From Clostridiales bacterium (GTDB taxonomy: Bacteria; Bacillota; Clostridia; Christensenellales; CAG-138): a DNA stretch of 64,000 nt. The notes below the pieces were generated by a model. The model saw nothing but the letters and a program-made list of their open reading frames with translations. It had not been told where the DNA came from and did not search any database. How positions within the stretch are numbered: the first letter of the stretch is position 1; every line of letters begins with the position of its first letter. This document shows positions 7,901-62,219 of this stretch, one piece after another. Made by a program: the position numbers and the translations under genes. The stretch lies in contig JAAYUE010000069.1 of the NCBI GenBank assembly GCA_012517905.1, forward strand, positions 124,001 to 188,000. The letters run 5' to 3'.

Positions 7901-8728
7901 TTATTCTGCCGCCGCGTCCTCGGCGGGGATCACGCAATATTTTCCATCGTAGGGCTTCGTCTTGACGACGCCTTTTTTGATCAGGATCAGCAGCACGACG
8001 CCGACGACGACCAGCACGGCGGAGAGCGCCTGGGACACGCGAACGGTGCCGAAGAGATAGAGGCTGTCCGTGCGCAGGCCTTCTATGATTGCGCGGCCGA
8101 TGCCGTAGCCGATGAAGTAGGTCGCCAGCAGCGTTCCGTCCTTGACGCCTTTTCGCCCGAGCAACAGCGTGACCACGAACAGGATAGTGTTCCAGCAGCT
8201 CTCATAAAAGAACGTTGCCTGATGCCACTCGCCAAGCGACCGGATATACACCGCCAGCGGGAAAAACTGGAGATTCGGATTCGACACCAGCGCGCCGAAC
8301 GCTTCCTGATTGATGAAATTTCCCCAGCGCCCCATCACCTGCCCGAGGATCAGGCTGGGAATGACGAGGTCGATGAGCTTGAGAAACGGAAATTTCGCCG
8401 CTTTCGAAAAGATGAACGCCGCAAGAAATCCGCCGATCACCGCGCCATAGATGGCGAGACCGCCTTTGTTGATTGCAAAGATCGAGCCGAGGTTTCCGGC
8501 GTACTGGTCCCACTCGAAGGCGACATAATAGAGCCGCGCGCCGATGATGGCAAGCGGAACGGCGATGAGGATGAAGTCCAGCACCAGATCCGCCGACCAG
8601 CCGCGCTTTCTGGCGCGCAGAGTGGCAAGGAAGATGCCGAGCAGCAGCCCGGAGGCGATGATGACGCCATACCAGGCGATGTTCAGCCCCTGGATTCCAA
8701 ACAGATTTTCTATCGCATACCGATTCAT
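7901..8728 (-). CDS. lgt: Prolipoprotein diacylglyceryl transferase
   Basis: ITWYGVII-like N-terminus; GRWGNFINQEAFG signature; multi-TM. Confidence 0.95.
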   Translation of the reverse strand: MNRYAIENLFGIQGLNIAWYGVIIASGLLLGIFLATLRARKRGWSADLVLDFILIAVPLAIIGARLYYVAFEWDQYAGNLGSIFAINKGGLAIYGAVIGGFLAAFIFSKAAKFPFLKLIDLVIPSLILGQVMGRWGNFINQEAFGALVSNPNLQFFPLAVYIRSLGEWHQATFFYESCWNTILFVVTLLLGRKGVKDGTLLATYFIGYGIGRAIIEGLRTDSLYLFGTVRVSQALSAVLVVVGVVLLILIKKGVVKTKPYDGKYCVIPAEDAAAE

Positions 8729-8884
8729 GGAGAGAACCTCTTTTCGTTGGGTGGCCGCCGAGCCGAAACCGGAAGCGGCACCGTTATTGTACCAAGCCAC
8801 CTTCGGGAGCGCAAGCGAGAGCGGAGGAAAGGCGGCGATTTACCACTTTATTTTACAGAAAAGAAAAAATGCGGAAAAGAAGGA

Positions 8885-8944
8885 TTGACAACTTAAGTTA
8901 GATGGTGTAAACTCCATATCTGAAAGTTAGACGAGTTTAACTTT
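8885..8944 (+). promoter_or_regulatory. feo operon promoter with metalloregulator-like palindrome
   Basis: TTGACA (8885-8890), 17 bp, TAAACT (8908-8913); downstream near-perfect palindrome AAAGTTAGAC-GA-GTTTAACTTT (8923-8944). Confidence 0.65.
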
Positions 8945-9021
8945 ATGCTTCAAAAGAGCGGCGCGCTTTGGAATGCGCAGCGAACAAGCCAATTGGATGG
9001 AACAAGGACGGAGGTGCGGGA

Positions 9022-9234
9022 ATGATGCCGCTGACGATGGCGAGGCCGGGCGAAACGGGCTATATCAAAAAGATCACCGGGAAGGACGAGGTGCGGAGGC
9101 ACCTGGCCGAATTGGGCTTTGTCGTTGGCGAGCGGGTAACGGTCGTCAGCGCCATTGCGGGCAACATGATTTTGCAGGTGAAGGACTGCCGGATCGCGCT
9201 TGGCGGCGAGATGGCAAACCGCATACTGATTTAA
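9022..9234 (+). CDS. feoA: FeoA domain protein (first copy)
   Basis: MMPLTMARPGETGYIKKITGKDEVRRHLAELGFVVGERVTVV...GNMILQVKDCRIALGGEMANRI; RBS GGAGGTG. Confidence 0.9.
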   Translation: MMPLTMARPGETGYIKKITGKDEVRRHLAELGFVVGERVTVVSAIAGNMILQVKDCRIALGGEMANRILI

Positions 9235-9251
9235 ACGAGGAGGAGCAAAGC

Positions 9252-9473
9252 ATGAAAACACTACGAGACGTGCCGATCGGGCAGACGGCGACGGTGGCGA
9301 AACTCCACGGCGAGGGCGCGCTCAAGCGGCGGATTATGGACATGGGCATCACCAAGGGCGTGGAGGTCTATGTGCGAAAGGTTGCGCCGCTTGGCGATCC
9401 GCTTGAGGTGACCGTCCGCGGATATGAACTCTCTGTGCGCAAGGGCGACGCGGCGAGCATCGAGGTGGAGTAA
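9252..9473 (+). CDS. feoA: FeoA domain protein (second copy)
   Basis: MKTLRDVPIGQTATVAKLHGEGALKRRIMDMGITKGVEVYVRKVAPLGDPLEVTVRGYELSVRKGDAASIEVE; nested in ORF 8973-9473. Confidence 0.92.
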   Translation: MKTLRDVPIGQTATVAKLHGEGALKRRIMDMGITKGVEVYVRKVAPLGDPLEVTVRGYELSVRKGDAASIEVE

Positions 9474-9527
9474 ACAAAACGCGGCAGGAGCCGCTTGTTT
9501 TTGGCGTTATAGTTAGAATCATCTAAC
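9474..9527 (+). promoter_or_regulatory. Intercistronic hairpin/T-run and second palindromic operator-like site before feoB
   Basis: GCGGC-agga-GCCGC followed by a T-rich run, then GTTAGA-atca-TCTAAC (9512-9527). Confidence 0.5.
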
Positions 9528-9566
9528 ACGGCGCCGCGGATGTAAAAAATCTACAAGGAGGAAACC

Positions 9567-11711
9567 ATGGGGATCACAATTGCGCTTGCGGGAAACCCGA
9601 ACAGCGGCAAAACGACGATGTTCAACGAGCTCACGGGCAGCGCGCAGTATGTCGGCAACTGGCCGGGCGTAACCGTTGAAAAAAAGGAGGGCAAACTGAA
9701 GGGGAACGCGGACGTCGTCATTCAGGACCTGCCGGGCATCTATTCGCTCTCGCCATACACGCTGGAGGAGGTCGTTGCGCGGAACTATCTCGTCTCCGAA
9801 CGGCCGGACGCGATGATCGACATCGTGGACGGCAGCAACATCGAACGCAACCTGTACCTGACCACGCAGCTGCTCGAGCTGGGCATTCCGACCGTGATCG
9901 CGCTGAACATGATCGACGTCGTCCGGAAAAACGGAGACGTGATCGATCTCGAAAAACTCGGCGCGGCGCTGGGCTGCGAGGTGGTGGAGACCTCGGCGCT
10001 CAAGGGCATCGGCGCAAGGGAAGCCGCGAGAAAAGCCGTCGCAATCGCGAAAACGGACGAACTCGGCGAACGGCCGCACGTCTTTTCAGGCAGTGTGGAG
10101 CACGCGCTGGCGCACATCGAGGAATCGATTGAAAGCCGGGTCGAGCGGCGGCTGCTGCGCTGGTACGCCGTCAAGCTCTTTGAGCGGGATGAAAAGGTGC
10201 AGCAGGAACTCAAACTGGACGCGGACACAAAGGCGCACATCGAAGCGCACATTCGGGACTGCGAGCAGGAGCTGGACGACGACGCGGAGAGCATCATCAC
10301 CAACCAGCGGTATGCCTACATCAGCCGCGCGGTGGACGAGAGCGTCCGAAAAAAGCGCACGGGGCTCAAGCTGACCGCCAGCGACCGGATCGACCAGATC
10401 GTGACGAACCGCTTTCTCGCGCTGCCGATCTTCGCGGTCGTGATGTTTCTGGTCTACTACATCGCCGTGACGACCATCGGCGCGATCGTGACCGACTTTA
10501 CGAACGACACGCTCTTCGGCGGCTGGATCACCGGCGGGTTGTCCGGCCTCTTTGAAAGCGCAAACGTAGCGCCCTGGCTCAGCGGGCTGATCATCGACGG
10601 CATCGTCGGCGGCGTCGGCGCGGTCATCGGATTTGTGCCGCAGATGCTCGTGCTCTTCTTTCTGCTGGCGCTGCTGGAGGACGTCGGATACATGGCGCGC
10701 GTGGCGTTCATCATGGACCGCATCTTCCGTAAATTCGGGCTGTCGGGCAAGTCGTTTATCCCGATGCTGATCAGCAGCGGCTGCGGCGTGCCGGGCATCA
10801 TGGCGAGCCGTACCATTGAAAACCAGCGCGACCGGCGCATGACCATCATGACCACGACGTTCATCCCCTGCGGCGCGAAGATGCCGATCATCGCGCTCTT
10901 TGCGGGCGCCATCTTCGGCGGCGCGTGGTGGGTCGCGCCGGCGGCATACTTCATCGGCGTTGCGGCGGTCATCGTCAGCGGCATCCTGCTCAAGAAGACC
11001 AAGGCGTTTGCGGGCGAACCAGCGCCGTTTGTCATGGAATTGCCAAGCTATCACGCGCCTTCCATGAAAAACGTGCTGCGCAGCACCTGGGAGCGGGGCT
11101 GGAGCTTTATCAAACGCGCCGGTTCGGTGATTCTCATCTCGGCGGTCGTGCTCTGGTTTTTGCAGGGGTTCGGCGTTGTCGACGGCGTGTTCGGCATGGT
11201 GGAGGACAACAATCACAGCATCCTCGCCGTCGTCGGCAACTTCATCGCGCCGGTCTTTTCGCCGCTCGGGTTCGGCGGCTGGAAACCCGCGGTTGCGACC
11301 ATTACCGGCCTGATCGCGAAAGAAAACGTCGTCGGCACGTTTGGCGTGCTCTACGGCTTTGCCGAGGTGGCGGAGGACGGCCTCGAAATCTGGAGCAACC
11401 TTGCGCTGGATTTCACCACGCTTTCGGCGTTCAGCTTCATGCTCTTTAACCTGCTCTGCGCGCCGTGCTTTGCCGCGATGGGCGCGATCAAAACCGAGAT
11501 GAACAGCGCAAAGTGGACCTGGGGCGCAATCGGATACATGACCGGGTTTGCATACGCCGTCGCGCTGATCTACTATCAGGTCGGCGGCTGGATTTCCACC
11601 GGCGCGTTCACCGCCGCGACGGCGGTTGCGCTCGCGTTGCTGGCGCTAATGCTCTATCTGCTGCTGCGCAGGAATCCATACGACAAAAAGCCTGCGAAAG
11701 GCAACGCATAG
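9567..11711 (+). CDS. feoB: Ferrous iron transporter B
   Basis: GNPNSGKTTMFNELTGSAQYVGNWPGVTVEKKEG G1 motif; Gate domains. Confidence 0.97.
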   Translation: MGITIALAGNPNSGKTTMFNELTGSAQYVGNWPGVTVEKKEGKLKGNADVVIQDLPGIYSLSPYTLEEVVARNYLVSERPDAMIDIVDGSNIERNLYLTTQLLELGIPTVIALNMIDVVRKNGDVIDLEKLGAALGCEVVETSALKGIGAREAARKAVAIAKTDELGERPHVFSGSVEHALAHIEESIESRVERRLLRWYAVKLFERDEKVQQELKLDADTKAHIEAHIRDCEQELDDDAESIITNQRYAYISRAVDESVRKKRTGLKLTASDRIDQIVTNRFLALPIFAVVMFLVYYIAVTTIGAIVTDFTNDTLFGGWITGGLSGLFESANVAPWLSGLIIDGIVGGVGAVIGFVPQMLVLFFLLALLEDVGYMARVAFIMDRIFRKFGLSGKSFIPMLISSGCGVPGIMASRTIENQRDRRMTIMTTTFIPCGAKMPIIALFAGAIFGGAWWVAPAAYFIGVAAVIVSGILLKKTKAFAGEPAPFVMELPSYHAPSMKNVLRSTWERGWSFIKRAGSVILISAVVLWFLQGFGVVDGVFGMVEDNNHSILAVVGNFIAPVFSPLGFGGWKPAVATITGLIAKENVVGTFGVLYGFAEVAEDGLEIWSNLALDFTTLSAFSFMLFNLLCAPCFAAMGAIKTEMNSAKWTWGAIGYMTGFAYAVALIYYQVGGWISTGAFTAATAVALALLALMLYLLLRRNPYDKKPAKGNA

Positions 11712-11752
11712 CGTCAAAAACGACAAACATCCGCTGAAAGGAGCGAATTGAT

Positions 11753-11923
11753 ATGTTGAACTGGCTGTCTGCCAACTGGGCGTCCCTTGTGGTCGGCCTT
11801 GCGCTCGCCGCGGTCATCGCGGCGGTGATTCTCAAGATGATTCGGGACAAAAAACAAAACAAAAGCGCCTGCGGCTGCTCCTGCAGCGGCTGCCCCGGCG
11901 CGGACTACTGCCACAGGAGCTGA
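11753..11923 (+). CDS. FeoB-associated Cys-rich small membrane protein
   Basis: Not in ORF track. MLNWLSANWASLVVGLALAAVIAAVILKMIRDKKQNKSACGCSCSGCPGADYCHRS*; directly after feoB with RBS GAAAGGAG. Confidence 0.85.
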   Translation: MLNWLSANWASLVVGLALAAVIAAVILKMIRDKKQNKSACGCSCSGCPGADYCHRS

Positions 11924-11964
11924 CGAACCGCGGCCCGAAGAGCTGCACAGCGCTGCATTGGTTC

Positions 11965-12003
11965 AAAAAAAGCGGGCATGACTTTCGTCAAGCCCGCTTT
12001 TTT
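11965..12003. terminator. Bidirectional rho-independent terminator
   Basis: AAAAAAAGCGGGC-atgactttcgtcaa-GCCCGCTTTTTT. Confidence 0.88.
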
Positions 12004-12013
12004 ATGTGGCGGA

Positions 12014-12514
12014 TCAATGCTCGGTCAGCGCCCGCTCCAGCCAGCCAAAGCGGCGCAGACAGGCGACGTACTCCGCCACGCTGTAGAAGTTTTTCAGGTC
12101 GGTTTCATTCAGCCCGCGGCGTGCAAAGAGCTCGTCCCAGAGCAGGCTGCTTCCCTCGACGAGGAAGTAACCGCTGGTCAGATCGATGCCGACGAGGATG
12201 TCGCACCCGGCAAACACATCGTCCTGATCGCGGTAGAGCGCCTCGCCCGCGCCCTCGTGCGCGATGATCCGGCAGACGGGCGACGGCTGCGTATCCGGCG
12301 GCAGCTCTCGGCGAAAGCACTCGTTTTCCAGAATATTGGCGCAGACGACCCGATTCGCTTGCGCGCCGTCAACGGGCAGAAGCGGATAGCGAGACTCCAG
12401 ATAGGACGGAAGCGCCGCGCCGCTGATCCGGTTGGGACGAAGGCGGTCTTTGTATGTTGCGTATTCCTCTTTCCAGCGCGCAAGATCGGCGTTGGTTGAC
12501 TGATGCGTCAGCAT
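12014..12514 (-). CDS. Hypothetical protein
   Basis: Open frame of 166 aa ending at the shared terminator; no family recognised. Confidence 0.6.
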   Translation of the reverse strand: MLTHQSTNADLARWKEEYATYKDRLRPNRISGAALPSYLESRYPLLPVDGAQANRVVCANILENECFRRELPPDTQPSPVCRIIAHEGAGEALYRDQDDVFAGCDILVGIDLTSGYFLVEGSSLLWDELFARRGLNETDLKNFYSVAEYVACLRRFGWLERALTEH

Positions 12515-48105: not shown

Positions 48106-50022
48106 ATGAACGGAATCGACCATCTCTGGATCGTCATCTGCGCATGCTTTGTATTCTTCATGCAGGCGGGGTTCATCTGTTATGAAGTCGGCTTTGTGCG
48201 CCCGAAAAACGTCGTCAGCGTCGCAATTGAAAACATCATTGCGTTTGTCATCGCCACGCTGGCGTACTGTCTCGTCGGGTTTGCGTTTATGTTCGGCGAG
48301 ACGAAGGGCGGGCTGATCGGAACCGGCAACTGGTTTTTGCAGAATTTAACGAGCGACTACGACAACATCTTCGTGCTCTATGAGCTCATGTTTGCCGGAA
48401 CCGCCGTCACCATCTTTGCGGGCAGCATGTCCGAGCGGACGAAGCTCAAGGCGCTTCTGATCGCGGCGGTGGTGACCGGCGCGGTCATCTACCCGATCTT
48501 CGGGCACTGGGTCTGGGGCGGAAACGACATCCGGCAAGGCACTCTGTTGAGCAACCTTGGATTCATGGATTACGCCGGCGCAACCGTGGTGCACTCCACC
48601 GCGGGATGGGTCGCGCTGGCGGGCACCATCGTCCTTGGGGCGCGGAAAGGGCGCTGGGATGAAACCGGAAAACCAAGACGGCTGGGACGCTCCAATATCC
48701 CGTTTGCCGCGCTCGGCACGTTCATCCTCTGGTTCAGCTGGTTTGGCTTCAACGGCGGAAACCTGCTGAAGTTTGACGACAGGGTCGGCCTGATCCTGCT
48801 CAACACCAACATCGCCGCATCCGCCAGCGTCGTCGGCGCGGTGCTGGTCACCCGGCTGACCGCGCGGGACCAGAGCTTTATGGAGGCGGTGTTCAACGGC
48901 GCGCTGGGCGGGCTGGTTGCCATCACCGCGAGTTCGGATATCCTCACGCTTTGGCAGGCGGCGCTCGTCGGCCTGATCGCGGGCGGCGTCGTGGTGCTGG
49001 GCAGTCTGCTGCTGCTCCGACTCAAAATCGACGACGCGGTGAACGCGATTCCGATCCACGGAATCGGCGGCGCGTGCGGAACGATCCTCTGCGCGGTGTT
49101 TGCCGCGCCGGACAAGCTCGTGCTGCCGACACGGCTGCAGCAGATTCTGGTGCAGCTGCTCGGCGTCGGCGCCAACTTCGTCTGGGCCTTCGGGCTCGGG
49201 CTTGTCATGTTTCTCGTGATCGACAGGACGATCGGGCTGCGCGTTTCGGACGAGGAGGAGGAAAAGGGCCTGAACGTCGTGGAGTTTTCCGATGTGGCGT
49301 CCTGGCTGGAACACCTGAAAGAGGAGCACTACGCGCAGCTGACGCAGGACCTCTACAGCACGATACAAAAGCAAAACGCCGATCTGCAGCGGCAGTCCGA
49401 TCTGCTCGTCGCGACGCAGGAGCGCGAGCGCAAGAAGATTGCGCGGGACCTGCACGACGGCGTGGGGCAGTCGCTCGTCGCGCTGAAAATCAACATTGGC
49501 CTGTTTCAGCGGATGTCCGAGGACGCGGCGGTGAAAGCACACGCGGGCAAGACCATCCGCATGGTGGACGAAACCATCGCCGAGATTCGGAATGTGATCG
49601 GCAATCTGGAGCCCGCGGCGCTGAAAAAAGACGGTCTTGCCGCGAGCGTGAAAAGCCTCTGCGAAAAACTGGAAAAGATCGGCCCGATTCAGTTTCACTG
49701 CGCCATCGCCGGCCGGATGCCGCACTGGAGTGAAACGGAGGAACTGAACATCTTCCGCATCGTGCAGGAGTGTCTGACCAATATCATCAAACATTCCGGC
49801 GCGACGGTGGCGGACGTCAATATGTTTCCGCTGAGCGACCGCCTCTTTCTGATCAGCGTGATCGACAACGGCAGCGGCTTTCCCATCCAGTCGGTCGATA
49901 ACGGCCTCGGGCTGTCTTCCATTCGGGAGCGCAGCGCCATGCTCAACGCGAAAATCGTGATCGACAGCGAGGAAGGACGCGGCACAAAAGTGATACTCGA
50001 GGTTCCCTATGAAAAAGATTAA
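48106..50022 (+). CDS. Ammonium transporter domain fused to HisKA_3-type sensor histidine kinase
   Basis: Amt domain with both conserved His (ATVVHSTAGW, IPIHGIGG) and WFGFNGGN; then RERKKIARDLHDGVGQSLVALKINI (H box), LNIFRIVQECLTNIIKHSGA (N box), DNGSGF, GLGLSSIRERSAML. Confidence 0.93.
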   Translation: MNGIDHLWIVICACFVFFMQAGFICYEVGFVRPKNVVSVAIENIIAFVIATLAYCLVGFAFMFGETKGGLIGTGNWFLQNLTSDYDNIFVLYELMFAGTAVTIFAGSMSERTKLKALLIAAVVTGAVIYPIFGHWVWGGNDIRQGTLLSNLGFMDYAGATVVHSTAGWVALAGTIVLGARKGRWDETGKPRRLGRSNIPFAALGTFILWFSWFGFNGGNLLKFDDRVGLILLNTNIAASASVVGAVLVTRLTARDQSFMEAVFNGALGGLVAITASSDILTLWQAALVGLIAGGVVVLGSLLLLRLKIDDAVNAIPIHGIGGACGTILCAVFAAPDKLVLPTRLQQILVQLLGVGANFVWAFGLGLVMFLVIDRTIGLRVSDEEEEKGLNVVEFSDVASWLEHLKEEHYAQLTQDLYSTIQKQNADLQRQSDLLVATQERERKKIARDLHDGVGQSLVALKINIGLFQRMSEDAAVKAHAGKTIRMVDETIAEIRNVIGNLEPAALKKDGLAASVKSLCEKLEKIGPIQFHCAIAGRMPHWSETEELNIFRIVQECLTNIIKHSGATVADVNMFPLSDRLFLISVIDNGSGFPIQSVDNGLGLSSIRERSAMLNAKIVIDSEEGRGTKVILEVPYEKD

Positions 50023-50659
50023 GGTGTTTCTGGCGGACGACCACAAAATTCTGCGCGAGTCGCTGGAGATATTGCTCTCGCAGAAAGAGAATATCGAGAT
50101 GGTCGGCGCAGCGGGCGACGGGCAGGAGGCCTACCGGAAGATCTGCGAGCTCAAGCCGGATATCGCCGTGCTGGATATCACCATGCCCGGCCTGAACGGG
50201 CTGGACCTGGCGGAAAAACTCAAAGCCGAACTGCCGGATGTGAAGGTCGTGATCCTCACGATGCACAAATCGGGCGAGTTTGTCAGCAAAGCGCTCGGCG
50301 CGGGCGTGCGCGGCTATGTGCTCAAGGACAACGCGCTGGAGGAGCTGATCGAGTGCATCGAGTTGGTCTCCGAGCGCAAGATCTATCTTTCGCAGGACAT
50401 CACGGATATCGTTGTGAGCGGATTTATCAGCCACAGCCGGGAAAATCCGGAGACGATCGAAAGCGCCGTCTCTTCGCGGGAAAAGGAGATCCTCCAGCTG
50501 CTGGCGGAGGGAAAATCCAACAAGGAGATATCGGATCTATTGAACCTGAGCGCGAAAACAGTCGAGACGCACCGCGCGAACATCATGCGAAAACTCGGGT
50601 TTCACAACATCACCGACCTTGTGCTCTACGCCGTGCGCAACCACATCATAGAACCGTAG
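50009..50659 (+). CDS. NarL/FixJ-family response regulator
   Basis: FLADDHKILRESLE, IAVLDITMPGLNGL, LTMHKSGEFVSKAL; LuxR HTH EILQLLAEGKSNKEISDLLNLSAKTVETHRANIMRKLG. Overlaps the kinase by 14 bp. Confidence 0.95.
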   Translation: MKKIKVFLADDHKILRESLEILLSQKENIEMVGAAGDGQEAYRKICELKPDIAVLDITMPGLNGLDLAEKLKAELPDVKVVILTMHKSGEFVSKALGAGVRGYVLKDNALEELIECIELVSERKIYLSQDITDIVVSGFISHSRENPETIESAVSSREKEILQLLAEGKSNKEISDLLNLSAKTVETHRANIMRKLGFHNITDLVLYAVRNHIIEP

Positions 50660-50671
50660 GTACAGCATAAA

Positions 50672-50719
50672 TACGGTAACTTTACAGGAAATACACCGCA
50701 AAAATCAGTTTTTACCGTA
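50672..50719. promoter_or_regulatory. 8-bp inverted repeat upstream of amt
   Basis: TACGGTAA (50672-50679) and TTACCGTA (50712-50719), centres 40 bp apart. Confidence 0.5.
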
Positions 50720-50785
50720 TATGGCGCTCTGTTGAAATTCGATAAAATGCCTGTATCACAATATGGGGTGGAGGCGTTTTTTACG

Positions 50786-51988
50786 ATGATCAATTCAGGG
50801 GATACTGCGTTTGTGCTGATTTGCGCGGCGATGGTGTGCTTTATGACACCGGGGCTCGCGTTTTTTTACGGCGGTCTGGTCCGCAAAAAGAACATGCTGA
50901 CGATCATGATGCAGAGCTTTGTCGCGATGGGCGTCGTGGCGCTCATCTGGTTTGTCTGCGGGTTCAGTCTCGCGTTTGGAACGGACGTCGGCGGCGTGAT
51001 CGGCAATTTTCGGTATGCGTTTCTCAACGGCGTCGGCATCGAGCCGAACGCCGCCTATGCGGGGACCATTCCGTTTGCGGCGTTCTTTCTGTTTCAGTTG
51101 ATGTTTGCGGTGATTACGCCGGCGCTGATCACGGGCGCGTTTGCGGACCGCATGAATTTCAAAAGCTATCTGATTTTTCTGACGCTCTGGTCGCTGCTGG
51201 TCTATGTGCCCTGCGCGCACTGGATCTGGGGCGGCGGGTTCTTGCAACAGATGGGGGTTGCGGACTTTGCCGGCGGCATCGCGATTCATACGAGCGCGGG
51301 CGTGGCGGCGCTGGTTTCGGTCCTCGTGATCGGAAAGCGCAACATCCCGTCGAGCGAAACGACGAAGCCCGCCAGCATCAAGTTCTTCGCGCTCGGCACG
51401 GCGATCCTCTGGTTCGGCTGGTTTGGATTTAACGGCGGAAGCGCGCTTGCGGCGGACGGCAAGGCGGCCATCGCGTTTGTCAACACCGCGCTGGCCGGCG
51501 GAGTCACGATGCTGACCTGGCTTGCGATCAGCTGGAGCCATACGAAGCATCCGAGCCTGACGGAGTCGCTGACCGGCGCGGTTGCGGGGTTTGTCGCCAT
51601 CACGCCCGCGGCGGGATATGTCTCGCCCGCGGCGGCGGTGCTCATCGGCCTCGCTGCGGCGTTTGTCTGCTACGGCGCGGTGCAGCTGCGCAAAAAGAAG
51701 GGGCTGGACGACGCGCTGGACGTGGTCGGCGTGCACGGCGTCGGCGGCATTCTGGGTTCGCTGATGGTCGGCGTATTCGCACAAAAGGCCATCGGCGGCG
51801 TGGACGGGCTCATCGCCGGAAATGCGCATCAGCTGCTCGTCCAGCTGATCGCGATTGCGATCGTTTCGGTCTATTCCTTTGCGCTGACGTTCCTGCTGCT
51901 CAAGGGCGTCAATCTGGTCTCGCGCGTTCGCGTTTCCGACGAGACGGAGCAAAAAGGGCTGGATACCCTCCTGCAGGAAGAGGCGTAA
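50786..51988 (+). CDS. amt: Ammonium transporter
   Basis: MINSGDTAFVLICAAMVCFMTPGLAFFYGGLVRKKNMLTIMMQSF; start moved to ATG 50786 after GGGGTGGAGG. Confidence 0.95.
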   Translation: MINSGDTAFVLICAAMVCFMTPGLAFFYGGLVRKKNMLTIMMQSFVAMGVVALIWFVCGFSLAFGTDVGGVIGNFRYAFLNGVGIEPNAAYAGTIPFAAFFLFQLMFAVITPALITGAFADRMNFKSYLIFLTLWSLLVYVPCAHWIWGGGFLQQMGVADFAGGIAIHTSAGVAALVSVLVIGKRNIPSSETTKPASIKFFALGTAILWFGWFGFNGGSALAADGKAAIAFVNTALAGGVTMLTWLAISWSHTKHPSLTESLTGAVAGFVAITPAAGYVSPAAAVLIGLAAAFVCYGAVQLRKKKGLDDALDVVGVHGVGGILGSLMVGVFAQKAIGGVDGLIAGNAHQLLVQLIAIAIVSVYSFALTFLLLKGVNLVSRVRVSDETEQKGLDTLLQEEA

Positions 51989-53584: not shown

Positions 53585-55165
53585 ATGAAACGTATTTTGG
53601 CCGTTCTGGCGGCCGTGCTGTTCTTAACCGCAGCGGCCGGCACGTTGCTGACGGGCTGCGCGGGCGGGGAGTCTTTCGTGATTCTGTCCGGCTCGGAAAA
53701 CGAGGCGCTGGAGCCGATTCTGGACGCATTCGGCAGACAGAACCATGTCAAGATCGAAATGGTCTACAAGGGCTCCGTAGACATCATGAACCTGCTCGGC
53801 ACGAGTACGATCAAGCAATATGACGCCGTCTGGCCCGCAAACAGCATCTGGATCAACATGGGGGATCGCAACCACATCGTCAAAAACGCGCAGTCCATCA
53901 TGCGCTCCCCGATCGTGTTCGGAATCAGAAAATCCCTTGCAGAGGAGCTGGGCTTTACATCCGGGGATGTCTACGTGCGCGATATATTGCGCGAAATCCG
54001 CGGCGGCAGGCTCCGGTTTATGATGACGTCCGCAACGCAGAGCAATTCCGGCGCGTGTGCGTATATCGGCTTTCTCAACGCGCTTCTGGACAATCCGGAT
54101 GAGATCACGCTTGAGGATTTGCAGGATGCGACGCTTCAAAAGGATGTGAAGGACCTGCTTTCCGGCGTTAACCGCTCGTCGGGCAGCTCCGGTTGGCTGA
54201 AAAAGCTCTTTTTAGCGGGCGACTATGACGCGATGGTCAACTATGAGAGCATGATCATCGAGGCCAATCAGGAGCTCGTTGCTGAGGGCAGGGAGCCGCT
54301 GTATCTTGTTTACCCCGTGGACGGGCTCGCGATTGCCGATTCTCCGCTTGGGATGATCGACAAGGGCGACGAGCGGTCTGCCGCAGTTTTTCAGAAGCTG
54401 ACGGATTATCTGCTCGGCGACGAGGCGCAGCAGGAGCTCATGAACCTCGGCCGGCGCACGGGGTTCGGCGGATCGATCGAGGGCGCGGATCCGAAAGTGT
54501 TCAACCCGGACTGGGGCATCGACAGCGCGCGCACGCTCTCCGGCATCCGTATGCCGGATTCGGACGTGATCATGGCGGCGCTGGAGCTCTATCAGAGTGA
54601 GCTGAAAAAGCCTGCGTATACGATCTATTGCCTCGATTTTTCGGGGAGCATGAGCGGCGGCGGCGAACGCCAGCTCAAGCAGGCGATGGCGCTGATTCTG
54701 ACCCAGAGCCAGGCGGAACAATACCTGCTGCAGGCGAACCGGGACGACGTGACGATCGTGATTCCCTTCAGCAGTTATCCGTGGGATCAGCTGCGCGTGG
54801 ACGGCAGCGACGACAACGAACTGTATCTATTGGCAAACCAGATTGCAGGCTTAAGCCCGCTGGGCGGGACCGACATCTATTCACCCGCGATACAGGCGCT
54901 GGACCTACTGCAAAGCGTCGATACGGACCGGTATTTCTGCGCGGTCGTGCTGCTGACGGACGGGGAATCGAACACCGGCGCGTCCTATCGCGACTTTGCC
55001 AAAGCATATGAAGCGCTGGACAAAGACATCCCGCTCTTCGCCATCATGCTCGGCAACGCGTCCGAAAGCCAGCTGCAGCCGCTGGCGGATCTGACGCGCG
55101 GGAGCGTGTTTGAAAGCGACGGCGATCTGGTCTCCGCATTTAAAAAAGTGAAAGGATATAACTGA
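53585..55165 (+). CDS. Lipoprotein: extracellular solute-binding-like domain fused to vWA domain
   Basis: Lipobox LLTGC; SBP-like N-terminal half; MIDAS YCLDFSGSMSGGG, GGTDIYSPAI, LLTDGESNTG. Confidence 0.88.
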   Translation: MKRILAVLAAVLFLTAAAGTLLTGCAGGESFVILSGSENEALEPILDAFGRQNHVKIEMVYKGSVDIMNLLGTSTIKQYDAVWPANSIWINMGDRNHIVKNAQSIMRSPIVFGIRKSLAEELGFTSGDVYVRDILREIRGGRLRFMMTSATQSNSGACAYIGFLNALLDNPDEITLEDLQDATLQKDVKDLLSGVNRSSGSSGWLKKLFLAGDYDAMVNYESMIIEANQELVAEGREPLYLVYPVDGLAIADSPLGMIDKGDERSAAVFQKLTDYLLGDEAQQELMNLGRRTGFGGSIEGADPKVFNPDWGIDSARTLSGIRMPDSDVIMAALELYQSELKKPAYTIYCLDFSGSMSGGGERQLKQAMALILTQSQAEQYLLQANRDDVTIVIPFSSYPWDQLRVDGSDDNELYLLANQIAGLSPLGGTDIYSPAIQALDLLQSVDTDRYFCAVVLLTDGESNTGASYRDFAKAYEALDKDIPLFAIMLGNASESQLQPLADLTRGSVFESDGDLVSAFKKVKGYN

Positions 55166-55174
55166 GGCGGACTT

Positions 55175-55774
55175 ATGCAGAATGGCAAGCAAGGGATCCT
55201 GTCGGGCGCAGCCGCTTCCGCCGTGTTTCTGGCGCTGTTGTTTTTCGCCAAAGCCGGGTTGATCGTTTCGGTTCTGGCGGGGCTGGCGTCCTATCTGCTG
55301 TTTGCGTTTCTGATCTTCAGAAAGCGCACGGTGCGGATCGTTGCGGAAGGCGTAACGCAGGAGGATGTGGAGGAGGCGCTCGCCGAGGGCGACGAGAAGG
55401 TAAAGAGCCTCGAGACGTCGCTCTCCGGCATTCAGGACGAGGCGGTCGCCCGCCCGGTTCGGCAGATCGTCACGGTGGCCAGAGCGATCTATTCGGACAT
55501 CCGGAAAGAACCGAAGAACATCAAGCAGGCGCGGAAATTCATCACGTACTATATGGACACGGCCGGATATATCGTGTCCCGCTATGTCGCGATCAACCAG
55601 GATAAAAACTATGTTGAAAACGGGGACGAGCTCGTGAAAAAGATCGCGGCGACGCTGGAAAACCTGAGCGCGGCGTTCGTCAAGATGAAATCCAGACTCA
55701 TGGAGAACGATCTGTTTGAGCTGGAGACCGAGATCAAACTCCTCGAACAGACCATCAAATCGGAGGGATTCTGA
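55175..55774 (+). CDS. XpaC-family (5-bromo-4-chloroindolyl phosphate hydrolysis) protein
   Basis: Two N-terminal TM then helical RQIVTVARAIYSDIRKEPKNIKQARKFITYYMDTAGYIVSRYV. Confidence 0.8.
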   Translation: MQNGKQGILSGAAASAVFLALLFFAKAGLIVSVLAGLASYLLFAFLIFRKRTVRIVAEGVTQEDVEEALAEGDEKVKSLETSLSGIQDEAVARPVRQIVTVARAIYSDIRKEPKNIKQARKFITYYMDTAGYIVSRYVAINQDKNYVENGDELVKKIAATLENLSAAFVKMKSRLMENDLFELETEIKLLEQTIKSEGF

Positions 55775-56868
55775 TGAAGAAGGGAAGAGCGGCCGGCATC
55801 ATCCTGCTTGTCGCCGTGATCGTCGCGGCGGTGCTCATCGCATCCCTGACCGGACAGAGCGACCTGCTGCGCCTGCCGAAGAAGACGGTGACGGTCAGCG
55901 GCTATGTCGGCGGGGAAAAGATCGGATTTCTTGCGGACGAGCAGGTGCAGAAAATCCTGCGCGACCGGTACGGCATCGAGGTGGACTACACGAAGGCCGG
56001 ATCGATCGAGATGGTCAGCGACTACGACCTGACGCATGTGGACTTTCTCTTTCCGTCCAGCCAGACGGCGTATGAGATCTTTAAACAGGCGCATGGCGGC
56101 CAGAGCGGCAAAAGCGAAAAGGTGTTTTTCTCGCCCATCGTGCTCTACAGCTGGAACGAAGTGGCCGAAGCGCTGGAGAAAAACGGGCTCTGCCAACGGC
56201 AGGCCGGCGGGTATTATACCGCCGATCTGGGGAAACTGGTGGAGCAGGTGCTCGCGGGCGCGAAGTGGAAGGACTTTGGGCTGGACATCTACGGCAACTT
56301 CAAGATCATTTCCACCGACCCGAACAAATCCAATTCGGGCACGATGTACGCCGCGCTGCTTGCCAACATCCTCAGCGGAAACGACGTTGCAGGCGAGACG
56401 GATATCCCGCGCGTTTCCGCTGAAGTCAGCCGCGTGTTCGGCCTGCTGGGGCAGATGGAATCTTCCTCCGGCACGCTCTTTACGCGCTATCTCAACCTCG
56501 GCATGGGCGAGAGTCCGATCGTCGTAGGGTATGAAAACCAGATCATCGAGTTTGCCGAGAGCGATCCCGCGCTCTGGGAAAAGGTGCGCGGCCAGGTCGC
56601 GCTGATCTATCCGGAGCCCACCGTCTGGAGCGAGCATTACCTCATTGCGCTGACGGACAACGGCAGAAAGCTGCTCGATGCGCTGGCGGACGAGGATATC
56701 ATGCGGATCGCCTGGGAGAAACACGGGTTTCGGACAGGAAACTCCATCTACAGCATGGACGAAGCGGACCTGCAGGCGTTGGGCATCTGCCGGACGATTA
56801 CGCAGGTGGTCCCGGTTCCGGACGCGGACAGCATGCTGCGGCTCTTGAAAATGATTGCATCAAATTAG
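55774..56868 (+). CDS. TM-anchored substrate-binding-like protein
   Basis: N-terminal TM without lipobox Cys; SBP-like fold signatures (STDPNKSNSGTMYAALLAN); overlaps XpaC stop by 1 bp. Confidence 0.75.
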   Translation: MKKGRAAGIILLVAVIVAAVLIASLTGQSDLLRLPKKTVTVSGYVGGEKIGFLADEQVQKILRDRYGIEVDYTKAGSIEMVSDYDLTHVDFLFPSSQTAYEIFKQAHGGQSGKSEKVFFSPIVLYSWNEVAEALEKNGLCQRQAGGYYTADLGKLVEQVLAGAKWKDFGLDIYGNFKIISTDPNKSNSGTMYAALLANILSGNDVAGETDIPRVSAEVSRVFGLLGQMESSSGTLFTRYLNLGMGESPIVVGYENQIIEFAESDPALWEKVRGQVALIYPEPTVWSEHYLIALTDNGRKLLDALADEDIMRIAWEKHGFRTGNSIYSMDEADLQALGICRTITQVVPVPDADSMLRLLKMIASN

Positions 56869-56880
56869 GAGGAACACACC

Positions 56881-57963
56881 ATGGAAACGACACAAAACGG
56901 CGAACTGATCCCACTGAAGACCGAACAGCTCACGCCGGAGGAGCGAAGCAGGGTGGACGATCTCATCCGGCAGATCGACATCGGCGATTCGCAGGCGATC
57001 ATCCAGTACGGCGTGGCGGCGCAGAAGAGCATCTCCACTTTTTCGGACAACGTGCTCGAGCAGATCAAGGCCAAGGACGCCGGACACGTCGGCGAGATTC
57101 TGACGGACCTGATGCTGGACGTAAAAACGCTGGACGTCGACTCGCTGTCCCAGCACACCGGGTTCTTCGGCCGGCTCTTTGGCTCGCTGAAGCAGAGATA
57201 CCAGCGGTTCATCGCGCGGTATGAGACGCTGAGCGTGCAGATCGAGCGGATCGTCAACGAGCTCGATGGCGCGAGGATGCAGCTGCTCAAGGACATCGCG
57301 CTGCTGGACGGCATGTATGACAAAAACCTGGAGTATCTCAAGCAGCTCGATCTCTTCATTCTCGCGGGCTCGGAAAAGCTGCAGCAGGTGCAGCAGAGCG
57401 TTCTGCCGCAGATGAAAGCGGAAGCCGAGCAGTCCGGCGATCCCGTCCTGGCGCAGAAGTTCAAGGACATGACGCAGCTGGCCGACCGCTTTGAAAAGAA
57501 GCTCTACGACCTGAAGCTCAGCCGCATGATCTCCATTCAGACCGCGCCGCAGCTGCGCATCATCCAGAATAACGACCAGTTGCTGGTGGAGAAAATTCAA
57601 AGCTCAATCCTCAATACGATTCCGCTCTGGAAAAACCAGATCGTCATCGCGATTTCGCTCTTTCGCCAGCAGAAAGCGCTGGAGATGCAGAAAAAAGTCT
57701 CCGAAACCACGGCGGAACTGCTGGAGAAAAACGCCGAACTGCTCAAGGAAAACTCCCTCGGCGTGGCAAGGGAGAGCGAAAAGGGGATTGTGGAGATCGA
57801 GACGCTCAAAAAGGTGCAGGGCGATCTGATCACCACGCTGGAAGAGACGCTTCGCATCCAGCAGGAGGGGCATACGCGGCGGATGCAGGCGGAGGCGGAG
57901 CTCTCCACGCTGGAGGGGGATTTGAAGAAAAAGCTGCTGCAGCTCAAAGACCAGGCTTCCTGA
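56881..57963 (+). CDS. TelA/KlaA toxic-anion-resistance family protein
   Basis: TFSDNVLEQIKAKDAGHVGEILTDLMLDVKTLD; LDKLKAHKE-like region LLDGMYDKNLEYLKQLDLFILAG. Confidence 0.9.
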   Translation: METTQNGELIPLKTEQLTPEERSRVDDLIRQIDIGDSQAIIQYGVAAQKSISTFSDNVLEQIKAKDAGHVGEILTDLMLDVKTLDVDSLSQHTGFFGRLFGSLKQRYQRFIARYETLSVQIERIVNELDGARMQLLKDIALLDGMYDKNLEYLKQLDLFILAGSEKLQQVQQSVLPQMKAEAEQSGDPVLAQKFKDMTQLADRFEKKLYDLKLSRMISIQTAPQLRIIQNNDQLLVEKIQSSILNTIPLWKNQIVIAISLFRQQKALEMQKKVSETTAELLEKNAELLKENSLGVARESEKGIVEIETLKKVQGDLITTLEETLRIQQEGHTRRMQAEAELSTLEGDLKKKLLQLKDQAS

Positions 57964-58013: not shown

Positions 58014-58250
58014 TTCATGGCCGCAACGGAGGCGCGTCCGCATGCCCCGGACAGCGGCGATGGACGATTGCGATTGCCGGGGAGATGGATGGAAGCCGGT
58101 ATGAACGCGCATCAATATCTAGGATTTACAAACCTGTGACAATCTCTTTGCCAATGCCTGATAACATGAATCCTGGGGACCATTTTTGCGGCGGCAGCGG
58201 AGCGAGAATGGAAACCCATGCGGCGCATACTGCTCAGGAGGAACTCATCA

Positions 58251-60044
58251 ATGCCTTTTTCGCCGATCGACTCCACGACATCTCTTACATCCGGCGGCGC
58301 AGACGAAACCCCGGATGAAAAGAGAGAGATGTTTTACTATATTTTGCAGAATCGCCTGGTATCGACCGTTTTTCAGCCTATCATTTCACTGCGAGACTGC
58401 TCCGTGCTGGGGTATGAGGCTCTGAGCCGGGGCCCGAAGGACACCGAATACGAAGACCCGCAAAAGCTGCTGGACCTGGCGCAGCAATACGAAGACCTCT
58501 GGGATCTGGAATATCTGTTTCGGTATAAGGCCCTCGAGTCGGCCGCGAAAATCGACCCCAAACACAAACTGTTTATCAACGTCAACCCCAACATCATCCA
58601 CGACAAGATGTTCAGCCAGGGGTTCACGCGGCAGTATCTGGAACAGTTTTCCATAAAAGCGGAGCGGATCGTATTTGAGATTACGGAGCAGCAATCGATC
58701 GGGCGCTGCGAAGATTTTGTCAACGCGGTCATCCACTATAAAGAGCAGAAGTACAACATTGCAATCGACGACGCGGGGGCCGGATATTCCGGGCTGAACC
58801 TGATTTCCGATCTGCATCCGCACTACATTAAACTGGATATGAAACTCGTGCGAAACGTCAACCGCGATCACATCAAACAGGCGCTGATCAAAAGCATGTG
58901 CGAATTTGCTTCGCTGACGCAGACCGGGCTGATTGCGGAAGGGATAGAGACGGAAGAGGAGCTCAGCAAGCTGATTGAATTTGGCGTGAATTATGGGCAG
59001 GGCTATTTCATCCAGCGGCCGGATGCCGAACTAAAGCCGATTTCAGACGAGGTTTATAACATCGTTCTGGCCGTTAACGAGCGGAAAAACCGATTTGTCA
59101 GCACCAGAATCTATGATCTGTATATCAAAAACATCAGCAGGAAGACCTGCGCGGTCAATCCCGGCCTGCTCTGCCAGAGCGTGGAGACGATCTTCAAAGA
59201 AAACGAGCAGCTGCAGGGGCTATGCGTTGTGGAAAACGAAATAGTCGTCGGGGTGATTACCAAGAATAAATTCTATAAGCATCTTGGCGGACAGTACGGG
59301 TTTTCCCTTTTCCTGAAACGGCCGATCAGCTATATCATGGACCGCGAGTTTCTCAGTGTGGATTATCACGCCACCATAGACACGGTGGCAAGAAAGGCGA
59401 TGGCCCGCCCGCTTGAGGAAGTCTACAATTTCATCACGGTCACCTGTGAAGGCAAATACTTCGGCACGGTATCCGTTATGGAGCTGCTGGGAAAAAGCAT
59501 CGAAACGATGGTGCTCGACGCCAAAAACCTCAATCCGCTCTCGGAACTGCCCGGCAACGTGCTGATTGAAAAACAGCTGGAGCGGATCGTCGGGTATCAG
59601 CAGGATCTCATCGTGCTGTATTTCGATATCGATAATTTCAAGGCGTACAACGATGTATACGGCTTTACAAACGGCGACAGAGTCATTCGGTATCTCACAA
59701 AAATTCTGAAGGAGTCCGCGCCCGGGGACAATTTTATCGGACATATCGGAGGGGATGACTTCTTGATGATCGCGGCGCTGGATGTCGTCTCCGGCATCTG
59801 CGATGCGGTCATCAGCAAGTTTGACCAGGGGATTCATGCGTTTTATTCGAGCAAGGATTTCGCGGCCGGGTATATCCAGACGAAAAACCGCAGCGGGATG
59901 ACGGAACTCTTTCCGCTGATGACGCTCTCTGTGGTCGGGGTGAAAGCAAGCGAGCATCGGGATATCTATTCTCTCGGAAAAGAAGCGGGCAAACTGAAAA
60001 AAATCTGCAAGCAGACGTCCGGAAGCTGCCGGATACTGCTGTGA
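58251..60044 (+). CDS. EAL - CBS pair - GGDEF(GGDDF) cyclic-di-GMP signalling protein
   Basis: YEALSRGP, INVNPN, EITEQ, IDDAGAGYSGL, EGIET; CBS-like middle; IGHIGGDDFLMI. Start after AGGAGG. Confidence 0.9.
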   Translation: MPFSPIDSTTSLTSGGADETPDEKREMFYYILQNRLVSTVFQPIISLRDCSVLGYEALSRGPKDTEYEDPQKLLDLAQQYEDLWDLEYLFRYKALESAAKIDPKHKLFINVNPNIIHDKMFSQGFTRQYLEQFSIKAERIVFEITEQQSIGRCEDFVNAVIHYKEQKYNIAIDDAGAGYSGLNLISDLHPHYIKLDMKLVRNVNRDHIKQALIKSMCEFASLTQTGLIAEGIETEEELSKLIEFGVNYGQGYFIQRPDAELKPISDEVYNIVLAVNERKNRFVSTRIYDLYIKNISRKTCAVNPGLLCQSVETIFKENEQLQGLCVVENEIVVGVITKNKFYKHLGGQYGFSLFLKRPISYIMDREFLSVDYHATIDTVARKAMARPLEEVYNFITVTCEGKYFGTVSVMELLGKSIETMVLDAKNLNPLSELPGNVLIEKQLERIVGYQQDLIVLYFDIDNFKAYNDVYGFTNGDRVIRYLTKILKESAPGDNFIGHIGGDDFLMIAALDVVSGICDAVISKFDQGIHAFYSSKDFAAGYIQTKNRSGMTELFPLMTLSVVGVKASEHRDIYSLGKEAGKLKKICKQTSGSCRILL

Positions 60045-60094
60045 GAAATATAAGCGGCGTAAGCCGCCCGAAAACGACGTTAGGAGAAACTCAA

Positions 60095-60760
60095 TTGAAC
60101 GAACTACGGTTTATCGACATCAGGAACAACCAGGAAATCAATGCGTATATCGCATCCGGCAACGCCGTGCTCGGCGCGCTGGGATACACGGACCATTCGC
60201 AGGCGCACGCGGGAAAAGCCGCAAACAACGCGGGGATGATTCTGCGGGAGCTGTGCTATGACGAAAAGACGATCGAACTTGCGCAGATCGCCGGCTACAT
60301 GCACGACATCGGAAATACCATCAACCGAACCGATCACGCGCACAGCGGCGCGCTGATGGCGAGGCAGATCCTGAAGGAACTCGGCATGCACTACGACGAT
60401 ATCGCAATCATCACGTCCGCCATCGGCCATCACGACGAAAAGACGGGCACGGCGGTCCATCCCGTTTCGGCGGCGCTGATCCTTGCGGATAAAAGCGACG
60501 TTCATCGAAACCGCGTCCGAAACACGGTCAAGGAAAACTTCGATATCCACGACCGGGTCAACTACGCGGCGATTCGTTCCGTCCTCAGCGTCGACCGGGA
60601 GCACGCCGTGATTCAGTTGGATATCACGCTGGACGAGGCGATTTGTTCGGTTCTGGATTATTTCGAGATCTTTCTGCAGCGCATGATCATGTGCAGGCGC
60701 GCGGCGGAGATTCTCGAGTGCAAATTCAAGCTGACGGCAAACGATGTCAAAATCATCTAG
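60095..60760 (+). CDS. HD-domain phosphohydrolase
   Basis: YMHDIGNTINRTDHAHSGALMARQIL; IGHHDEKTG; TTG start at 60095 after AGGAG more likely than GTG 60041. Confidence 0.85.
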   Translation: MNELRFIDIRNNQEINAYIASGNAVLGALGYTDHSQAHAGKAANNAGMILRELCYDEKTIELAQIAGYMHDIGNTINRTDHAHSGALMARQILKELGMHYDDIAIITSAIGHHDEKTGTAVHPVSAALILADKSDVHRNRVRNTVKENFDIHDRVNYAAIRSVLSVDREHAVIQLDITLDEAICSVLDYFEIFLQRMIMCRRAAEILECKFKLTANDVKII

Positions 60761-60851
60761 CGGCTGCCGACGGCCGAACAAACGCCGCATCAGGCAAATT
60801 GGCAAGGACGCGCTGAAACGCGCTATGAAACACAAGCGAAAGGGAAGTATA

Positions 60852-62219
60852 ATGTTGAAGACATTCGTACTGGACACCAACGTTCTCATCCAATCCCCAT
60901 ACTCGATTCTGTCCTTTGAAGAAAACAACCTCGTGCTGCCGATCGTCTGTCTCGAAGAGCTCGACGACATGAAAAACGACGACGGGGAGCGCGGCTCCAA
61001 CGCGCGGGAGTGCATTCGCGTTCTGGAGCGGCTGAGGCTCGGCGGCAACCTGCTCGACGGCGTGCCGCTGCCGAACGGCGGAACGCTGCGCATCGAGCAG
61101 AATTATTCCGGCATTGAGCTGCCGAGCGGATTTCACGCGTCCAAGCACGACAACCGCCTGCTGAAGGTATGCATCGGCATCGCGAACGAGCAATCGCAGA
61201 CGATACTGGTCACGAAAGACATCCTCCTGCGGCTGAAAGCGCAGCTGATCGGCATCGACGCCCAGGATTTTACAACGGAGCAGTCTCCCGCGCCGTCCGA
61301 ACAATATACAGGCAGAGCGGAGGTCTATACCGCGGATGAAAAGCTGGCCGGGATCAAGAAAAAAGGGATTGATCCGAAGGATGTGTACCTCCTGTCGGGA
61401 GAAGAGAAAAAGCTGTTTGAACCGGTGGTCAACCAGTTCATCATCGTCCGCTCGGAGGTCAACGAAAGGAAAACGATTCTGGCGAGGTTTAACGGGACGC
61501 ACATCATTCCGCTGAGCTACATTCGAAAAGAACCCTTCGGCGTAAAGCCGAAGAACGTGGGACAGTATTTTTTGCAGGAAGCGCTCATGACCAGCGCCGA
61601 GGAAGCGCCGCTGGTCATCGTCAAAGGGGCCGCCGGCACGGCGAAGACCTTTTATTCGCTCGCCGTGGGGATGGAGAAGATGCTGGAGGCCGACGAGCGG
61701 GAGTATCGGAAAATACTGCTGACCCGGCCGAATGTGCAGTTCGACGAGGATATCGGGTTTTTGCCGGGCAGCGAACAGGAAAAAATCGCCCCGTTTCTGC
61801 GGCCGGCCATCGATAATCTCGAATTGCTGGTTGACCGAAACGAAAAAGAGCGGTATAAAAGCGAAAAGGAACTGCATGGGAAAATAGACGAATTGTTCGA
61901 CCGGGGGATCATCGCCGCCGAAGCCATGAATTTCATCCGCGGCCGTACGATTACCCATACGTACCTGATCATAGACGAAGCGCAGAACCTCACGCCGAAG
62001 CAGGCGAAAGGGCTAATTACGCGCGTCGGGCGGGGCACGAAGATCATTCTGCTGGGCGACCCGCAGCAGATCGACCATCCGCTGCTGGACGAGCGCACCA
62101 ACGGCCTGAGCTTTGCCGGGGAACGCATGAAGGGCAGCAGCTATTGCTGGCAGATCACCATGCTGCAGGAGGAGTGCGAGCGCTCGGTGCTTGCAGCGGA
62201 CGCCGCCAACCGGATGTAA
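60852..62219 (+). CDS. PIN domain-PhoH family ATPase
   Basis: TFVLDTNVLIQSPYSILSFEENNLVLPIVCLEELD (PIN); VKGAAGTAKTFYSLAVGMEKM Walker A; LIIDEAQNLTPKQAKGLITRVGRGTKIILLGDPQQID. Confidence 0.93.
   Translation: MLKTFVLDTNVLIQSPYSILSFEENNLVLPIVCLEELDDMKNDDGERGSNARECIRVLERLRLGGNLLDGVPLPNGGTLRIEQNYSGIELPSGFHASKHDNRLLKVCIGIANEQSQTILVTKDILLRLKAQLIGIDAQDFTTEQSPAPSEQYTGRAEVYTADEKLAGIKKKGIDPKDVYLLSGEEKKLFEPVVNQFIIVRSEVNERKTILARFNGTHIIPLSYIRKEPFGVKPKNVGQYFLQEALMTSAEEAPLVIVKGAAGTAKTFYSLAVGMEKMLEADEREYRKILLTRPNVQFDEDIGFLPGSEQEKIAPFLRPAIDNLELLVDRNEKERYKSEKELHGKIDELFDRGIIAAEAMNFIRGRTITHTYLIIDEAQNLTPKQAKGLITRVGRGTKIILLGDPQQIDHPLLDERTNGLSFAGERMKGSSYCWQITMLQEECERSVLAADAANRM

Follow-up and report, generated by a model that had tools for sequence, protein, structure and literature searches.

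A cassette joining two substrate-binding-type proteins with XpaC and TelA recurs as a unit and may act as an envelope receptor

TelA and XpaC are widespread protein families whose biochemical function is poorly defined. In the stretch of Clostridiales DNA analysed here (64,000 nucleotides, hereafter the window), genes for both stand beside two genes for proteins that resemble substrate-binding proteins (SBPs), one of them fused to a von Willebrand factor A (vWA) domain. The locus raises the question of whether these four genes form one system and, if so, what such a system would sense and do.

Architecture of the four-gene cassette

The four genes, termed A, X, S and T (Table 1), are co-directional and tightly packed, with A–X, X–S and S–T gaps of 9, −1 and 12 bp, just as a sequence-only reading of the window had described them. 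Gene A starts with ATG, preceded by GGGAGG ~9 nt upstream, and its product carries the lipobox LTGC at residue 25. Pfam profiles matched A to SBP_bac_11 (65.2 bits, cut-off 25) and VWA (25.0 bits, cut-off 23.8), X to PF10112 (XpaC; 109.3 bits, cut-off 29.8) and T to PF05816 (TelA; 398.7 bits, cut-off 30). S, which has a single N-terminal transmembrane (TM) segment, scored 20.9 bits against SBP_bac_11, below the cut-off of 25.

Table 1 Genes of the cassette and features of their products (positions in the window)
Gene	Position	Strand	Product and features
A	53585..55165	+	Lipoprotein; SBP_bac_11 at ~residues 33-290; vWA with complete MIDAS (D351-x-S353-x-S355, T429, D459); KGYN C-terminus
X	55175..55774	+	XpaC/PF10112; hydrophobic N-terminal segment (probable hairpin), then cytoplasmic helices
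S	55774..56868	+	SBP-fold protein, TM-anchored; homologue of the SBP domain of A; SNSG motif as in A
T	56881..57963	+	TelA/PF05816; cytoplasmic; no TM segment

AlphaFold2 models of A and S (mean pLDDT 93 and 92, respectively) were both placed by Foldseek among type II SBPs. Alignment of the SBP domain of A with S in hhalign gave 98.7% (E 1.6e-16), with the SNSG motifs of the two proteins in register. Because the AlphaFold2 model, the Foldseek result and the homology to A agree, we accept S as an SBP fold despite its sub-threshold Pfam score, and a type II SBP fold is supported for both proteins. The predicted inventory of a vWA-fused SBP lipoprotein, a TM-anchored SBP-like protein, an XpaC and a TelA was thus borne out by Pfam, AlphaFold2, Foldseek and homology. 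Sequence searches with S, X and T returned no convincing match of known structure.

Recurrence of the cassette as a unit

A scan of genome contigs yielded 405 relatives of A, and we took gene neighbourhoods from the best 80 of these 405. The best 80 span Bacillota, Bacteroidota, Spirochaetota, Acidobacteriota, Eisenbacteria and Syntrophaceae, and include the isolates Puia dinghuensis, Oceanobacillus arenosus and Sporolactobacillus shoreae; many loci are from metagenome-assembled genomes. HMM searches found A followed immediately by X in 78 of the 79 loci with enough downstream DNA, X by S in 72 of 73 loci with room and S by T in 49 of 66; as the loci were picked by closeness to the window's A, these rates describe that clade. 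All A–X and X–S gaps among these closest relatives were at most 60 bp. The one exception to A–X adjacency is a spirochaete locus in which A stands alone (L082).

For A, X and S, divergence between pairs of loci correlated at r = 0.93 across 37 loci, a value to which shared ancestry contributes, and the correlation of these three with T was 0.67–0.75. A–X–S–T is also the gene order in four more genomes from the order, where the flanking genes differ, and another of the phylum's families has it in two (L131 and L132). No other gene family recurred at a constant place around the ~80 loci. The neighbourhood survey therefore clearly found the four genes together outside this genome, on which the sequence-only reading had staked its case: A–X–S(–T) is one conserved system and not a chance local arrangement. 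A literature search, whose coverage did not extend to the key 2012 Ter survey, found no description of it.

Two local peculiarities were seen among these loci. In L132, a second, partial A–X copy lies upstream of the intact cassette (8221-12239), and an in-frame TGA interrupts this additional A. In L012 and L013 the cassette has apparent phosphonate genes in its vicinity (PhnC/PhnD/PhnE-like genes and one for a PhnX-like HAD protein, as judged by sequence), a proximity that is probably coincidental.

Permuted versions occur at a greater distance. Plasmid records of the Betaproteobacteria Variovorax and Sphaerotilus contain S–T–A followed by a short X-like membrane protein, the same arrangement is found in Nonomuraea, and Deinococcus has an S–A–X-like order. 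The X-like protein of the permuted sets matches neither Pfam nor our X model and was assigned by position and topology. The permuted orders strengthen the case for one unit. A divergent X'–A'–T' set exists in the window's own phylum. It is found in L147, a member of the family to which the window belongs, and in L219, where the SBP, VWA and TelA profiles all score above cut-off; L217 and L218 have X'–A'. One Variovorax plasmid cassette (L150, 1-13446) lies between flotillin-type genes and Wadjet genes.

The proposal that the four products form one envelope complex thus gained a firm genetic footing from adjacency, correlated divergence and permuted orders, and from this unit we infer the physical complex.

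Could A and S instead serve an ABC importer as its two SBPs, with the permease and ATPase genes at another site and X and T as bystanders? Their folds are close to those of importer SBPs. However, no permease or ATPase lies within the four genes, as had been noted from the sequence, and none recurs at a constant place around the ~80 loci, on which ground we rejected an importer with a missing permease. Moreover, X adjoins A (78/79) and co-diverges with it, the members stay together when their order is permuted, A carries a fused vWA domain, and the window's own genome encodes no second S. Taken together, the importer reading is most improbable.

The cassette is nevertheless patchy: strong A matches were found in 4 of 399 genomes of a phylum sample and 5 of 200 of an order sample, and the seven further genomes examined from the genus all lack TelA. 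Such a rare and scattered distribution is consistent with horizontal spread or repeated loss.

TelA as a frequent but non-obligatory partner

A linked TelA is absent from 17 of the 66 loci with room for it. Cassette and solo TelAs keep apart in the TelA tree, which requires 6 changes compared with ~22 in shuffles, and the unlinked TelAs of genomes that have A–X–S alone belong mostly to the solo clade. The tree does not support a mere relocation of TelA in the loci without a linked T. Given the missing T in 17/66 loci and the solo affinity of most unlinked TelAs, the core of the system is A–X–S, with TelA as a frequent, non-obligatory linked partner; T may be dispensable or swappable. Solo TelAs often adjoin an XpaC without A or S, as in xpaC–yaaN. 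One locus labelled Melainabacteria (L041) has a TelA near-identical to those of clostridial loci and may be mis-binned.

Metal site, binding clefts and candidate ligand

The five MIDAS residues (DxSxS, T, D) do not vary among the 44 A proteins compared (44/44), lending support to the metal-dependent vWA contact that had been proposed from the window. The lipobox cysteine is present in 40 of the 44, and the tyrosine of the C-terminal KGYN tail is invariant among them; distant A proteins have RGYQ or RAYQ at this end. An invariant MIDAS on lipid- or TM-anchored proteins would also suit a metal-dependent adhesion or wall-anchoring complex, in which the vWA domain binds an outside polymer through its MIDAS and the SBPs bind wall ligands, with no signalling involved. 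Several vWA relatives of known structure are receptor- or adhesion-type proteins, which accords with such a role. By contrast, the constant pairing with XpaC and the frequent pairing with a cytoplasmic TelA would be unexpected for a purely surface adhesin, and we regard adhesion as unlikely.

The SNSG motif forms a helix N-terminus in both SBPs, and conserved Ser, Gly and Asn residues stand at the starts of equivalent helices in the SBP domain of A and in S. The invariant residues of the SBP domain of A are enriched at helix N-termini (p = 0.011), whereas the corresponding enrichment in S is not significant (p = 0.18). The nearest solved folds to A and S in Foldseek have as their ligands Fe(III) together with carbonate, hexose phosphate, sulfate or molybdate, so the ligand of the pair is probably anionic (phosphate-like, an oxyanion or an organophosphate).

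A and S have their fold and helix N-terminus pocket in common with AfuA, FbpA, ModA, Sbp and HptA-type SBPs, but these lack a vWA domain and XpaC/TelA partners, and are 9–17% identical to A/S. HptA acts as a sensor with no known importer. Calcium-channel alpha2-delta subunits, found as a vWA match, resemble A in placing an extracellular vWA domain with MIDAS beside a ligand-binding domain. In these eukaryotic proteins the ligand-binding part consists of Cache domains instead of an SBP, and the likeness is an analogy of working, not kinship with the cassette. Proteins of Variovorax and Streptomyces annotated as 'Substrate-binding and VWA domain-containing protein' are distant homologues of A that combine SBP and vWA. 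This is a database name only, and for the partners S, X and T the annotations read 'hypothetical' or 'toxic anion resistance' protein.

A candidate envelope-spanning receptor

We propose that lipoprotein A and TM-anchored S would present two related SBP clefts on the outer face of the membrane, probably for an anionic ligand. Through its MIDAS metal, the vWA domain of A would grip a partner, which may be S, X or a wall component. X would relay the state of this assembly through the membrane to its helical cytoplasmic part, working with cytoplasmic TelA. That A–X–S(–T) is an envelope-spanning receptor/effector complex seems to us somewhat better than an even bet; here we infer the physical complex, the ligand class, the direction of signalling and the protective output. 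The conserved cassette offers a testable proposal for what TelA and XpaC respond to, and is a case of importer-type SBPs employed outside ABC transport across many phyla.

Among the closest known systems is the XpaC–TelA pair (xpaC–yaaN of B. subtilis; lmo1966–lmo1967 of Listeria), in which the same two families are adjacent, as in the cassette. Unlike the cassette, the pair lacks SBP and vWA parts, and cassette TelAs group apart from solo TelAs. The SBP pair and the vWA domain may thus have been added onto this known envelope-stress pair. The xpaC–yaaN genes are part of the core sigmaW regulon (PMC3498285), and mutation of lmo1967 (telA) in Listeria raises nisin sensitivity 4-fold (PMC12791056), an effect also described in PMC11765107. 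From the sigmaW regulation and the nisin phenotype, an envelope-stress output of the cassette, as suggested earlier, is plausible only by analogy.

The accompanying suggestions fared less well. TelA and XpaC had been described as recurring near Ter-type genes, which found no support locally: a search of the genome for TerD (PF02342), the one Ter gene sought, returned none, and we reject a Ter system on this basis. An anti-phage or anti-toxin defence system could be argued from the place of TelA in proposals for Ter-type xenobiotic or phage defence (PMC7824862) and, anecdotally, from the single Variovorax cassette beside Wadjet genes. Against this, PADLOC returned no family of note for the cassette, with weak matches to helical regions of X and none for A, S or T, no defence genes recur around the loci, and A matched no phage record. 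The suggested phage or toxin resistance is thus without direct support, and a defence role is very unlikely.

A broader reading extends the receptor to a widespread class, in which an importer-type SBP heteropair, one member with a MIDAS vWA domain, would signal its occupancy through XpaC to TelA, with neither kinase nor transporter. We put this forward tentatively, as a possibility that we doubt more than we believe. If true, TelA would gain its missing input.

Other genes in the window

Upstream of the cassette, positions 48106-51988 encode an ammonium transporter–histidine kinase fusion (PF00909 + HisKA_3 + HATPase_c); a LuxR-type response regulator and another ammonium transporter come next. 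Downstream, positions 58218-62219 encode an EAL-CBS-GGDEF protein, an HD-domain protein and a PIN-PhoH (PhoH2-like) protein.
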